From the NCBI GenBank assembly GCA_949743955.1, contig CATJVQ010000023.1, positions 45,699-109,698 of the forward strand: 64,000 nucleotides of DNA. Direction: 5' to 3'. The notes beneath the pieces are model-generated. The model did no database searches. It was not told the origin of the DNA and was given only the letters and a program-made list of their open reading frames with translations. The position numbers and the translations under genes are program-made. This document shows, one piece after another, positions 41,144 to 46,888 of this stretch (position 1 is its first letter; each line of letters starts with the position of its first letter). The DNA is from an uncultured Oscillospiraceae bacterium (GTDB lineage Bacteria > Bacillota > Clostridia > Oscillospirales > Ruminococcaceae).

Positions 41144-41180
41144 TTGACTTTCGGTCATTTCACTATTGACTTTCGGTCAA
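41144..41180 (+). promoter_or_regulatory. Double TetR-type operator
   Basis: Two copies of TTGACTTTCGGTCA sit at 41144-41157 and 41166-41180, two helical turns (22 bp) apart. The second is a full palindrome TTGAC-TTTCG-GTCAA and covers the -35 box. This is a strong candidate for autorepression by the downstream TetR protein. Confidence 0.82.
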
Positions 41181-41194
41181 TCAAGTGCTATACT
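41166..41194 (+). promoter_or_regulatory. Promoter of the tetR-type gene
   Basis: TTGACT (41166-41171) and TATACT (41189-41194) are spaced by 17 bp. The -35 box lies inside the second operator copy. Confidence 0.87.
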
Positions 41195-41223
41195 GGATTC
41201 GTCAGAGAGAGGAGGGGAAGGTT

Positions 41224-41790
41224 GTGAGGGTGACAAAGCATCCGGATGAGCGGCGCAGAGAGATCATTCAGGCGGCCCGGGAGCTGTTTGCGGCCAACGG
41301 ATTCATAAAGACGACGATCAGCGACATCGCCGAAAAAAGCGGGATGGCCAAGGGCCTCTTTTACTACTATTTCCGCACGAAGGACGATGTCATGGCCGCC
41401 GCCGTCGAGGATTATATCGCGCAGACACAGGCGCAGGTATTGGGCATTGTCCGGCAGACGGAGAAGGATCTGGTCTCCCGCATCGAAGAGGTTATCAATG
41501 TCGTCATCGACTTTTCGCAGGATGCGGAGCGGGTCTTCGCCGAGCTCAAGAGTAGCGACCGGTACATGTTTCACCAGAGCATTCTTGAGCACGCGGTGAC
41601 ACGGCTGTCCCCAGTACTGAGCCAGCTTGTGGATGAAGGGCTGGAAAAAGGGGTTATCCGGTGCGCGCAGCCGCATGTCGTGGCACAAATCCTGTTTTAC
41701 GGGTTCGGCATGATCGACTTCACCAATTTGGACAGAAGCGTTATTCTGGAAATCGTTACGCAGTCTCTGGGTGTGGAAGCTGCAAAGTAA
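41224..41790 (+). CDS. TetR-family repressor
   Basis: This 188-aa protein has an N-terminal HTH (ERRREIIQAARELFAANGFIKTTISDIAEKSGMAKGLFYYYFRTKDDVMAAAVEDYI) with the classical TetR spacing. The ligand-binding/dimerisation C-terminus is of unknown specificity. I start at GTG 41224, which follows GAGGAGGGGAAGG; the track start at 41185 lies inside the promoter region. It sits just ahead of an MMPL exporter and has its own operator pair, so it probably represses itself and the transporter. Confidence 0.9.
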   Translation: MRVTKHPDERRREIIQAARELFAANGFIKTTISDIAEKSGMAKGLFYYYFRTKDDVMAAAVEDYIAQTQAQVLGIVRQTEKDLVSRIEEVINVVIDFSQDAERVFAELKSSDRYMFHQSILEHAVTRLSPVLSQLVDEGLEKGVIRCAQPHVVAQILFYGFGMIDFTNLDRSVILEIVTQSLGVEAAK

Positions 41791-41815
41791 CCGCACCTTT
41801 ATTTATAAACAATAA

Positions 41816-41834
41816 TTGACTAGCATTCAGTCAA
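41816..41834 (+). promoter_or_regulatory. Third TetR half-site palindrome before the MMPL gene
   Basis: TTGACT-AGCATTC-AGTCAA is an inverted repeat with the same TTGAC/GTCAA arms as the upstream operators but a longer centre. It lies 25 bp before the MMPL start. It likely brings the transporter operon under the same repressor. Confidence 0.7.
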
Positions 41835-41858
41835 CAAAAAAGAGGAGGTCATCCTGTT

Positions 41859-43976
41859 TTGCTGGAAAAGCTCGCGCATCTGCTGACGCGCAAGTACGGT
41901 ATCATTCTCGCCATTGCCGCGGCTCTGATGATACCGAGCGCCATCGGCGCACTGAATACACGCGTCAACTATGACATACTGAGCTACCTGCCGTCCGACC
42001 TAGATTCCTCAAAGGGGCAGCAGGTGCTTGAGGAGCCGTTTCATATGGCGGCGGTGAACATGCTGGTTGTGGAAAACATGCCCGACCGCTACGTCTCGGA
42101 GCTCCGGGACAAAATTGAGGAGGTGCCGGGGGTCAATAAGGCCATCGCGCTGAGTAACCTGCTCGATGTGAGCATCCCTAAAGAGATCCTGCCGAAGGAC
42201 ATCCGGGACATCTTCTTCAGCGACACCTGCTCTATGATCATGGTGCAGTACGATAAGCCCGGTTCCTCTGGCGAGACCATGGCCGCAATCGACACCATCA
42301 GGGCTCTTTCCAATGAACAGTGTTTTCTGGCGGGCGTGTCGGTGTTCCTCAAGGATACGAAGGACCTTGTCATCAGCGAGATGCCGCTGTATATGCTTGT
42401 AGCGGTGCTGCTCTCCGTGGCGGCGCTGCTTCTGACAAGCGAGGCCTATATCCTGCCGCTGGTGTTCATCCTCGGCATCGGGGTGGCCATCGTCTACAAT
42501 ATGGGGACAAACGTATTCCTCGGCGAAGTATCGTACATCACCAACGCCATCGCTGCGATTCTGCAGCTCGGCGTGACGACGGACTACTCCATCTTCCTCT
42601 TAAACCGCTATATCGAAGAGAAGCCGAAGTTCGCCGACCGCCGGGACGCGATGTCCAGTGCGATTGTCAGTGCGTTTGTATCGCTCTCGAGCAGCTCCAT
42701 GACAACGGTCGCCGGGTTCCTCGCGCTGTGCTTTATGAAGCTGCGCCTGGGCGGCGATCTGGGGCTCGTGATGGCGAAAGGTGTCATATTCGGGATTATC
42801 ACGGTTGTGCTGGTACTGCCGTCCATCATCCTGCTTTTCGACGGGCCCATCCAGCGTTGGCGGCACCGTTCGATTGTGCCCAGCTTTGAGCGGGTAAACC
42901 AGTTTGTGATTAAGCGTTCCAAACGCTTCGCCGCACTGTTCCTTCTTTTATTCCTGCCCGCCTACTACTGCCAATCGCAGACAGAGGTCTATTATAACGT
43001 GGATCAGTCACTGCCAGCGGATCTGGCCTCCACCGTGGCCAATGAGAAGCTCAAGAACGAATTTAACATGGCCACCACCCATTTCCTCATCATCGACGAC
43101 AACCTGCCCGCGGCCAAACTCAAGGATCTGTGCTTGAAGATGGAGAAGGTGGACGGTGTGGAAACCGTGCTGGCCTATAACAAATTTGTCGGCCCGGCGA
43201 TGCCCGATGAGTTCATCCCCGAGGATGTGAAAGAGGTCTGCAAGAAGGACGGCAAACAGATCATCATGATTAACTCCTGCTATAAAGCGGCCCGCGCCGA
43301 GGAGAACGCCCAGATCGACGAATTGAACGCGCTGGCGAAATCCTATGATCCGGAAGCGCTCCTGACAGGAGAGGGCGTCATGACCAAGGATCTGATCGAG
43401 ACATGCGACGTGGATATTCAGGTGACGAACATCATCTCCGTCCTTGCGATTCTCCTGATTGTCGGCATCAGCTTCAAGTCTCTGACGGTACCGATTGTAC
43501 TGGTGGCGTCGATTGAGCTGTCCATCTTCATCAATGTCGGCTTTTCTTACCTGACCGGGACGGTGATCCCGTTCATTTCGCCCATCGTTATCAACTGCAT
43601 CCAGCTCGGGGCGACGGTCGACTACGCCATCCTCATGACGACGCGCTTCCGTGAGGAGCTGCGCGCCGGGAAGGAGAAGAAGGAGGCCATCCGCATCGCG
43701 GCGAATACGTCGGACGAGGCCATCATCACGAGCGCGCTGGTGATGTTCTGCGCCACCTTTGGCGTGAGCATCGTTTCAAAGATGGAGATCATCCAGAGCA
43801 TCTGCCTGATGCTCGCGCGCGGTTCCATCGTCAGCGCGCTGGTGAGCATCTTCATTCTGCCCAGTGTCCTGTATGTATGCGAGGGCATGTTTGCCAGAAC
43901 CTCGCACGCCTGGCGGACGCCTCCCGCACCCAGGGGGCACCGCAGAAAAAAGAATCAGAGTGTTCAGACCGCTTGA
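41859..43976 (+). CDS. RND/MMPL-family transporter
   Basis: This 705-aa protein has two repeats, each with one N-terminal helix, an extracytoplasmic loop of about 100-150 residues and about five helices. The diagnostic helices contain GVTTDYSIFLLNRYIEEK and GATVDYAILMTTRFREELRAGKEKKEAIRIAANTSDEAIITSALVMFCATFG, matching MMPL proton relay motifs. In Clostridia these export lipids, peptides or drugs using the proton gradient. TTG start after GAGGAGG. It is followed 25 bp later by the large exported protein, which may work with it. Confidence 0.9.
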   Translation: MLEKLAHLLTRKYGIILAIAAALMIPSAIGALNTRVNYDILSYLPSDLDSSKGQQVLEEPFHMAAVNMLVVENMPDRYVSELRDKIEEVPGVNKAIALSNLLDVSIPKEILPKDIRDIFFSDTCSMIMVQYDKPGSSGETMAAIDTIRALSNEQCFLAGVSVFLKDTKDLVISEMPLYMLVAVLLSVAALLLTSEAYILPLVFILGIGVAIVYNMGTNVFLGEVSYITNAIAAILQLGVTTDYSIFLLNRYIEEKPKFADRRDAMSSAIVSAFVSLSSSSMTTVAGFLALCFMKLRLGGDLGLVMAKGVIFGIITVVLVLPSIILLFDGPIQRWRHRSIVPSFERVNQFVIKRSKRFAALFLLLFLPAYYCQSQTEVYYNVDQSLPADLASTVANEKLKNEFNMATTHFLIIDDNLPAAKLKDLCLKMEKVDGVETVLAYNKFVGPAMPDEFIPEDVKEVCKKDGKQIIMINSCYKAARAEENAQIDELNALAKSYDPEALLTGEGVMTKDLIETCDVDIQVTNIISVLAILLIVGISFKSLTVPIVLVASIELSIFINVGFSYLTGTVIPFISPIVINCIQLGATVDYAILMTTRFREELRAGKEKKEAIRIAANTSDEAIITSALVMFCATFGVSIVSKMEIIQSICLMLARGSIVSALVSIFILPSVLYVCEGMFARTSHAWRTPPAPRGHRRKKNQSVQTA

Positions 43977-44001
43977 AACCGCAGCAAGGAGGAATTTACT
44001 T

Positions 44002-46551
44002 ATGAATTGGAAGCGTTCTCATCAGCCGGCCCTGAAAACGGCATGCCTTGTCCTGTCGGCCGCGCTGGTATTCGGGTCGGGGATGAGTGTCAGCGCCGAG
44101 GAGAACACCGGCGGTGCCGAAGCGGATGCCGCCGGCGCCGCGAACGGGGCGAGAAGCGTCAGCAGTGCCTACCAGAAGAGTGAGACAGTCTATGTCAACC
44201 TCGATCCCAGCGGCAAACCGTATGATCAGATTGTCGTCAACTGGCTGCACAGCGACACGCCCGGCGTCACCATTGAGGACCGCACGACGCTGCGCGATAT
44301 CGAGAATGTCAAGGGCGACGAAACGCCCCGCCGCAGCGGCAACAACGTCTCCTGGGATCTGGACGGTACCGACCTCTACTACCGCGGCCGGACCGACGGC
44401 GAGCTGCCCGTCTCGGTGGACATTACCTATAAGCTGGACGGCAAAACGATGTCCGCGGAGGAGATCGCGGGGAAGAGCGGAAAGCTGGAGATGACGGTGA
44501 ACGTCAAAAACAACCTGCGCCGCAGCGTGATGATCGGCGGCGAGGGGGTAACAATGTACGTCCCGCTCTCGGCCGCTGTCGCGCTCTCGATGCCGGAGGA
44601 GACATTCCATAACGTCGACTGCCCGGACGGTACTGTCCAGAGCGACGGCAATGTGCAGGCGGTTGCGCTCGTGGCGATGCCCGGGCTTGAGGACAGCCTG
44701 AACCTCGGGGGATACGACCTCCCCGGCTTCGGCGACATTGATTTCCCCGAGACATTCACCCTCACCGCCGATGTGGATGAATTCGAGCTCGGCCCTATCG
44801 GTATTGTAGTGACAGCGTCCATCCCCGAGCTGGATAAGATCGACGCCGCCGAGGATATCGACGATATGCGAACGGATCTCATCGATCTGCAGAGCGCGCA
44901 AAACGATCTGGACGCGTGGGATCCCTCCCGCCGGACCCGTTCGCTCTTCACGTCCCCGGCGCATACGGCGGGCGCGCGCGTGCTGGTGAACGATATCTTC
45001 GAGTTTTACGATCAGGATGTCGCCATTCTCGACATTCTCCCGAAGTATACGACAGAAGAGAATATTGATCTGTACGACCGTGTATCCAAGACCATGGACG
45101 ATGTGGACATCGACGAACTGCTCGATTCAGAGGCTGTGGATAAGCTTATCGACCGCCTGACGGAGAAGAATGTCGAGAATATCCGCTCCCTGCTCAACGA
45201 TTACGACACCATCAAGGACCTCGACTGTGACGAGCTCGACGATCTGTTAGAAGAGATGCAGGATCTGCTCGACGACTATGAGGAAAAGCGCGAAATTTTT
45301 GAGACATATGAAGTCTTGCTCAAGTATTCCGACAGCATGTTCGCTCTCGCCGATGCGCTGGAGAGTTCCGGGCTGGAGGAATACCTCGATGAGAACGTGA
45401 TTGACACGGTTATCGGCGGCATTGCCGGCACGAAGGTACCGGCGGCAGTCCGGCCGGACCGACTGGAAGACGCGATTTATGTCCTTGGAATCGATGGTGC
45501 GACAACACGGTCGCCTAAACAGGTGGAAACAATCAAGACAGCGTTTGCGATGGCGCTTGAGAAAAGGCCGAACGATCCGAGCCTGAACGCGCTGGATGGT
45601 TTTGTATCCACGCTCGGAACCTCGGGAGTCATTCCCCCGCAGATTTCCGGCGGTCTGGCGCAGGTGCTCGGCGGTGTAAAAAGCACGGTAGAAGATGAGA
45701 TGACATCGGCGGCGGAAAAACCGTCGCAAAGCCTCAAGGGGCTTCTCCGGGACGTAAAGAATCTTAAGGGTCAGATGGATAAGGAGCTGGGCGGCAACAC
45801 CGAGGCCCGCTTGGCGGACGCGATGGACTTCACTAAAGAGATGGCCCCGCGGCTCGAGAAGATGCTGGCGGCTGCGGAGGATCTCGCCAAGCACATGCAC
45901 TATAAGGACGGTACGGACGATCTGGTGGATGAACTGCGCCGGGTGATCCGCGACCTGGACGCAAACAAGGGCACCATCAACGCGCTGCGGGATCTGATGG
46001 ACGAATACGACGCCGATCAGTTTGACACACTCCGCGAGCACTGGCCAGAGCTCAAGGACGACATCAAGGAGGTGCGCCCGATCCTCCGGGATCTGCGCGA
46101 CGACCTTAAGGATCCGGTTTTGGACCGCAGCCTGCACGCCATGCCGCAGACGGTGGACGTCCTCCTGCGGATGAAGGACGATCTGTTCGAGCAGCGTGAA
46201 ATTTCGGAAATTCTGCGCGATTCGCTCGCACAGGACAAGGTGGATACTGCTACGCGCATGTTCGGCACCTTCGATCGATTGCAGGAGAAGGGATCGGTGG
46301 ACAAATACGTCGGCCAGGTGGACGATGCGGATCTCCTGCTCGAACGCAAGGACGCCATTGTCGAACTGTCGAACCAGTACCGCATCTATACCGATGCGGC
46401 CGACGAAGCGGATACTGCGCTCAAATTTGTCATGAAGACGGATGAAATTGAGAAGCCTGAAGCGCCGCAGGCGGATGAGGAGCCCGCAGAGGAAAAGAAA
46501 GGGATCACGGCCTGGGTGAAAGGCGTTATCGGGAAGCTGACAGGAAAATAA
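44002..46551 (+). CDS. Large exported coiled-coil protein linked to the MMPL transporter
   Basis: This 849-aa protein has a signal peptide (residues 1-about 32, VSAEE). Residues about 55-175 form a beta-rich domain (ETVYVNLDPSGKPYDQIVVNWLHSDTPGVTIEDRTTLRDIENVKGDE). The rest is almost entirely helical with heptad spacing, including repeats of DDLLEEMQDLLDDYEEK, VRPILRDLRDDLKD and similar. I start at ATG 44002, after AAGGAGGAA; the track ORF begins in another gene. There is no transmembrane C-terminus. No function is established; its place directly after the MMPL gene suggests a periplasm-facing partner, as with HlyD or MmpS proteins. Confidence 0.75.
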   Translation: MNWKRSHQPALKTACLVLSAALVFGSGMSVSAEENTGGAEADAAGAANGARSVSSAYQKSETVYVNLDPSGKPYDQIVVNWLHSDTPGVTIEDRTTLRDIENVKGDETPRRSGNNVSWDLDGTDLYYRGRTDGELPVSVDITYKLDGKTMSAEEIAGKSGKLEMTVNVKNNLRRSVMIGGEGVTMYVPLSAAVALSMPEETFHNVDCPDGTVQSDGNVQAVALVAMPGLEDSLNLGGYDLPGFGDIDFPETFTLTADVDEFELGPIGIVVTASIPELDKIDAAEDIDDMRTDLIDLQSAQNDLDAWDPSRRTRSLFTSPAHTAGARVLVNDIFEFYDQDVAILDILPKYTTEENIDLYDRVSKTMDDVDIDELLDSEAVDKLIDRLTEKNVENIRSLLNDYDTIKDLDCDELDDLLEEMQDLLDDYEEKREIFETYEVLLKYSDSMFALADALESSGLEEYLDENVIDTVIGGIAGTKVPAAVRPDRLEDAIYVLGIDGATTRSPKQVETIKTAFAMALEKRPNDPSLNALDGFVSTLGTSGVIPPQISGGLAQVLGGVKSTVEDEMTSAAEKPSQSLKGLLRDVKNLKGQMDKELGGNTEARLADAMDFTKEMAPRLEKMLAAAEDLAKHMHYKDGTDDLVDELRRVIRDLDANKGTINALRDLMDEYDADQFDTLREHWPELKDDIKEVRPILRDLRDDLKDPVLDRSLHAMPQTVDVLLRMKDDLFEQREISEILRDSLAQDKVDTATRMFGTFDRLQEKGSVDKYVGQVDDADLLLERKDAIVELSNQYRIYTDAADEADTALKFVMKTDEIEKPEAPQADEEPAEEKKGITAWVKGVIGKLTGK

Positions 46552-46621
46552 GCGTATGGAACGCCGGGCTTTGGAACACACTATGGAGGCAAACGTATTT
46601 CTCCTGAAAGGGGAGGCTTCC

Positions 46622-46786
46622 ATGCCGAAGAGTAAAAAACAGGATAAGAAACAGATGGAGGAACCGACCCGCCGCGCAATGGAACTGACCGATCTGCGCG
46701 ACGTGCGCACGGATCCGCTCGGCAGCTATACAGGCAGCCCGCTCAACCCCTATGAGAAGCCTGTACAGGATGCGGACGATCTATAA
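46622..46786 (+). CDS. Short conserved-looking protein, 54 aa
   Basis: MPKSKKQDKKQMEEPTRRAMELTDLRDVRTDPLGSYTGSPLNPYEKPVQDADDL, start ATG 46622 after AAAGGGGAGG. It is Lys-rich at the N-terminus and ends in an acidic motif; short proteins with an ending like GSYTG..P.EKPVQDADDL occur in related Clostridia, as far as I recall. The track start 46556 is too early. It is the last gene of the tetR-MMPL unit, about 70 bp after the large protein, and its stop codon coincides with the left end of a palindromic element. Confidence 0.65.
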   Translation: MPKSKKQDKKQMEEPTRRAMELTDLRDVRTDPLGSYTGSPLNPYEKPVQDADDL

Positions 46787-46888
46787 TACTGATATTCAAT
46801 AAATTGTAGACAATCTGTGGGTCAAAAAATCCATATATGCAAGATTTTTCGCCCCGCAGATTGTACAATTTTAATTGAATATCAGTAT
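46786..46888. mobile_element. MITE-like palindromic element
   Basis: ATACTGATATTCAAT at the left end and its exact reverse complement ATTGAATATCAGTAT at the right frame a 103-bp segment. The inner parts (AAATTGTAGACAATCTGTGGG and CCCGCAGATTGTACAATTTT) extend the match to an imperfect arm of about 36 bp. There is no ORF inside. No target duplication can be asserted. It begins at the stop codon of the 54-aa gene. Confidence 0.72.

Follow-up and report, generated by a model that had tools for sequence, protein, structure and literature searches.

A TetR-linked MMPL permease and its exported partner protein form a conserved genetic unit in Clostridia

Introduction

Do a TetR-family repressor, an MMPL permease and a large exported protein that are encoded side by side constitute a single export system, and if so what part does the exported protein play in it? 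The question is raised by a 64,000-nucleotide stretch of DNA (the window) from an uncultured Oscillospiraceae bacterium. An earlier note had read this locus as an envelope export or surface-remodelling unit of undescribed function under TetR control, and had counted a downstream 54-aa protein among its members. Our analysis bears out the export unit for the repressor, the permease and the exported protein; the 54-aa protein drops out of it and surface remodelling finds no direct support. The unit consists of the TetR gene (41224–41790), the MMPL/RND permease gene (41859–43976) and the gene for the 849-aa exported protein (44002–46551), all on the + strand; we use the short name COIL for the exported partner. 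Gene calls were made with simple scripts. Together the three genes make up a genetic unit that is conserved, as is its operator, and COIL represents an undescribed family that is probably a cell-wall-reaching component of the pump.

The permease and its pairing with COIL

The permease (705 aa, TTG start) matches Pfam MMPL over two stretches with 180 bits (cut-off 20.5). Two Asp-Tyr pairs are a feature of proton-driven RND transporters, and the proton-relay pairs D242-Y243 and D588-Y589 are found in 27 to 28 of 28 aligned proteins. A hydropathy scan gives 11 membrane segments, where 12 in two repeats would be expected of an RND protein. No coiled coil is inserted in the permease chain; the helical part resides in the separate COIL protein.

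A scan with the permease only collected 80 named loci from the Oscillospiraceae, Clostridiaceae, Lachnospiraceae and Erysipelotrichia, three of which are cut by a contig end. COIL adjoins the permease or is fused to it in 76 of the 77 uncut loci: it lies downstream in 65, upstream in seven and in one open frame with the permease in four. The single lone permease is that of locus L131. This test is stronger than one made from the COIL side because it started from the permease alone. Seen from the COIL side, the best 30 matches in the order have an MMPL gene directly upstream wherever the contig is long enough, and the two genes often overlap by 4 bp. Both of the other genomes of the genus carry TetR, permease and COIL together; among named relatives the closest is Provencibacterium sp. 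ABMPRH_177_2, whose permease is 67% identical.

The four fusions (L115, L119, L126 and L142; 1249–1636 aa) fall into two groups, with 62–83% identity inside one and 41% to the other. Their junctions retain an internal signal or lipobox sequence, so that the mature product could be one chain or two. Two further apparent fusions, L149 and L169, proved to be artefacts of the choice of open reading frame and are counted as pairs. The pairwise distances of the MMPL proteins and of the COIL heads are correlated with r = 0.83 over 103 loci, and those of MMPL and TetR with r = 0.49; both values include the species-tree signal.

With a full-length profile, relatives of COIL were found in 159 of 393 Clostridia genomes, the weakest of which may be coil matches; a profile of the head only, run on 300 genomes of the phylum, found COIL in 36. 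The family is thus present in some 40% of the sampled Clostridia genomes, including many gut lineages, and apart from a repeat that some of its members carry it has no named domain. A search of the open-licence literature found no publication on the MMPL–COIL pair, and a plasmid search found no annotated copy of the system.

Architecture of COIL

The COIL protein of the window begins with a hydrophobic segment that is predicted to be a signal peptide (residues 1–32, 44002–44097), with cleavage probably after SVSA. This is the only membrane span found in the protein. A β head follows (residues 57–271, 44170–44814), modelled mostly at pLDDT above 90 (model ma6116ad56f7d), then a helical middle part in a low-confidence model (residues 275–792, 44824–46377), a conserved C-terminal strand (residues 804–813, 46411–46440) and a short C-terminal helix (residues 835–846, 46504–46539). 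The models suggest that the strand returns to the head after the helical excursion. A compact relative of 398 aa (L056:6593–7789, − strand), modelled with a mean pLDDT of 89.8, has the same order: the β head is followed by a helical hairpin, a return strand and a helix at the end. Conservation across the family covers the N-terminal head, the C-terminal strand, which follows the pattern VKFI-x-K/R-T, and, in some members, a short amphipathic helix. The helical middle varies in length, and the smallest complete COIL protein has 398 aa, the largest about 1,180. Lipobox-like sequences mark several members as probable lipoproteins.

The signal peptide and the confidently predicted head uphold the earlier description of a secreted protein with a β-rich head. 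The term 'coiled coil' could not be sustained for the window copy. Its helices are modelled mostly at pLDDT 30–65, its hydrophobic periodicity is not significant (peak power of 12.4 against a shuffle maximum of 13.2) and it lacks the LxxG heptads, i.e. the X-X-X-Leu-X-X-Gly repeat (TIGR03057) that is carried by 22 of 32 relatives. The window protein was also checked for membership of a characterized family unrelated to MMPL; it matches no Pfam or NCBIfam family, and most relatives match only this repeat. Matches of COIL to MCE-type proteins were discarded as coiled-coil composition, as were PDB matches to SMC, myosin and similar proteins, none of which is returned by the head alone.

When the window and compact models were compared with the PDB using Foldseek, the best matches were exclusively eukaryotic mu-homology domains (the top 21 and the top 27, respectively). 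These matches reach an E value of 4e-8 and a probability of 1.0, with target TM-scores of at most 0.47 and an r.m.s.d. of ∼6 Å or more. Two separately predicted heads thus have all of their best matches in the domains of AP mu, delta-COP and SGIP1. The COIL head differs from these in being extracellular and bacterial, in having a helical hairpin before the last strand and in its lack of sequence similarity: a profile of 62 heads gave no sequence match to mu-homology domains in the PDB, and the mu-homology domain is not among the Pfam families listed for that profile. More generally, the head found no sequence match in Pfam or the PDB. We take the likeness of the models to be suggestive, without assigning COIL to that family. 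Viral structures were not taken as relevant relatives of the head (best match with an E value of 7e-4 and a TM-score of 0.16).

The repressor and its operators

The TetR-family repressor (188 aa, 41224–41790, + strand) has a TetR_N DNA-binding domain that scores 59.2 bits against a cut-off of 24. Its gene begins after AGGAGGGG, and an AGGAGG stands 8 nt upstream of the GTG at 41224, which is the likely start. The best-scoring promoter match upstream of it is of the sigma-70 type, TTGACT-17-TATACT (41166–41194, + strand), and is assigned from its consensus match (10 of 12 positions). A palindromic candidate operator is located at this putative promoter of TetR itself. It occurs as two identical copies of TTGACTTTCGGTCA, operator 1 (41144–41157) and operator 2 (41166–41179), 22 bp apart, and operator 2 contains the −35 element. 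This exact 14-mer has no further occurrence in the 2.4-Mb genome. A third, related site, operator 3 (TTGACTAGCATTCAGTCAA, 41816–41834), lies behind the TetR stop codon and 25 bp before the start of the permease; it has one mismatch in the core and an extra GTCA, which is also present in the loci of the same genus. The two 14-bp copies, one of them over the TetR −35, and the recurrence of the half-sites before the transporter had been described in the earlier note, and both observations stand.

The core of the operator, TGACYNNNRGTCA, has a three-base spacer and is matched exactly by operators 1 and 2. It is concentrated in promoter DNA (the regions around the TetR and permease genes), with 100 sites in 51.7 kb compared with six in the other 1,329 kb of these loci; the core half-sites with other spacers amount to five in total within the promoter DNA. 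The exact core is conserved in 44 of 121 loci, 41 of which have at least two copies, and some 64% of loci are without it. A TetR gene was detected within 600 bp in 52 of 75 COIL-bearing loci.

One variant among the loci that lack the core has the gene for a DUF308 membrane protein before the permease and a regulator with a TetR_C_8 domain (L033:5165–5773, L172:2814–3428 and about 15 further loci); the DUF308 gene often overlaps the permease gene by four bases. In the genome of the window, TTGACTNNCGGTCA has a third match at G000:C40:5855 (L192), ahead of the gene for a 170-aa protein, part of which resembles a zinc ribbon; the genes that flank this operator-like site are unrelated, and the site was set aside.

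Proposed mechanism and alternatives

The reading that we favour, by a little more than an even chance, is an inducible proton-driven exporter of amphiphiles that is made of two proteins and their own repressor, with COIL as a wall-side adaptor or conduit. Without inducer, TetR would occupy both promoter sites of its own gene as well as the one in front of the permease, keeping the unit off. An amphiphilic inducer, which might be a fatty acid, a bile-acid-like compound, a membrane lipid or a hydrophobic drug, would release TetR, and the permease would then move the amphiphile out of the membrane using its two Asp-Tyr pairs. The COIL head may dock onto the extracellular domain of the permease, with the helical hairpin, probably as an oligomer, projecting into the cell wall and carrying or guiding the substrate away. 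COIL would be held at the membrane by its C-terminal amphipathic helix or, in other members, by a lipid anchor. No Omp85 was found in the genome, which is consistent with a monoderm; the coil would accordingly face the wall rather than an outer membrane.

Two described systems offer a comparison. MmpS5–MmpL5 of Mycobacterium tuberculosis likewise has a permease of the MMPL superfamily, an adaptor dedicated to it, a coiled coil on the extracellular side and a transcriptional repressor; the coiled coil of MmpL5 is essential, a model shows it as a tube, and the adaptor MmpS5 is required as well (PMC12501195). There the permease chain itself contains the coil, and a small Ig-like membrane protein serves as adaptor, whereas here a separate COIL protein bears both head and helices, the permease has about 705 aa and the regulator is a TetR protein. 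COIL would thus unite the roles that MmpS (adaptor) and the MmpL5 coil (conduit) have in mycobacteria. It has no family match to the MmpS adaptor, which is also absent from the listed structure matches. FarR–FarE of Staphylococcus aureus, an inducible fatty-acid efflux system (PMC10019231; PMC12671165), resembles the present unit in that a Gram-positive bacterium has a TetR regulator next to an efflux pump of the MMPL type (PMC10019231). MmpS5–MmpL5 provides the closest worked parallel for the mechanism and FarR–FarE for the regulation. We know of no exported partner protein described for FarR–FarE.

The exporter reading draws on the pairing, the swapped gene order, the fusions, the distance correlation, the Asp-Tyr pairs, the export signal of COIL and its lack of further membrane spans, the lipoprotein-like members, the model of the compact relative, the conservation of the operator, the lack of an Omp85 and the MmpL5 analogue. 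Against it count the low-confidence middle of the window COIL, which is without LxxG heptads, the limited number of COIL loci with TetR within 600 bp and the majority of loci that lack the exact core. COIL also varies more in length than a fixed-span conduit would lead one to expect, which leaves space for a second reading in which COIL is a wall-side lipid carrier, its head taking a lipid from the permease and then either shuttling it or leaving it in the wall. Lipids are commonly moved by MMPL proteins, the head is the conserved part while the helical part is free to vary in length, and many members have a short amphipathic helix at the C-terminus or resemble lipoproteins. We nevertheless regard such a carrier as unlikely, as no lipid-binding family is recognized in the head and no lipid-synthesis gene recurs in the neighbourhood.

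Adjacency and the distance correlation could also be explained by a shared regulon without contact, and contact is not shown by adjacency and co-regulation alone. COIL might then be cargo or an independent surface protein (an adhesin, a strut or a sensor) that never touches the permease, and with a signal peptide of its own its export would be possible without the permease. The one-frame fusions in two groups, the seven loci in which the order is swapped with adjacency kept, and the correlation of r = 0.83 make this improbable. The TIGR03057 repeat is also found in YhgE/Pip and some MMPL proteins, and its presence in most COIL relatives gives them extracellular helical repeats like those of YhgE/Pip, a known kind of heptad-repeat surface protein. 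An assignment of COIL to this kind is nonetheless scarcely credible, and was rejected: COIL lacks the multi-span C-terminal membrane domain and has a different head, the window copy is without the repeat, and the three COIL members listed in full gave no match to the model.

The boldest extension of the exporter reading would make COIL a new class of RND partner, a mu-homology-like exported adaptor that holds the permease and extends as a helical conduit across the monoderm wall, with a fold shared with the cargo adaptors of eukaryotic vesicle coats. We give this version little credence; the mu-homology fold, if true, would bear on the origin of that domain. Should a complex underlie the pairing, monoderms possess RND exporters of two components, comparable to the MmpS–MmpL pumps of mycobacteria, and which inducer acts on the conserved operator becomes a testable question.

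The 54-aa gene and the downstream repeat

The 54-aa protein (46622–46786) has a conserved C-terminus, which reads DPxGSYTGxPxxPYEKPVQDADDL in the window copy. It matches no Pfam or NCBIfam family, and no conserved neighbour was recognized in 3-kb loci around its gene. Of 197 genomes of the order, 42 have a homologue, as do both of the other genomes of the genus, and in none of them does it adjoin the TetR–MMPL–COIL unit; where a genome has both, the 54-aa gene is on another contig or about 1 Mb away, as it is in the same-genus genomes. This separate location in relatives rules out the 54-aa protein as a partner of COIL or the permease, and the trio of permease, COIL and 54-aa protein put forward in the earlier note is reduced to a permease–COIL pair that stays together.

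Directly downstream, at 46786–46888, an inverted repeat of ∼103 bp with 46-nt arms (80% complementary) lies between two convergent genes. The genome has related full-length copies (76–92% identity) at no fewer than six other sites, and their form suggests a MITE-like or terminator-like family.
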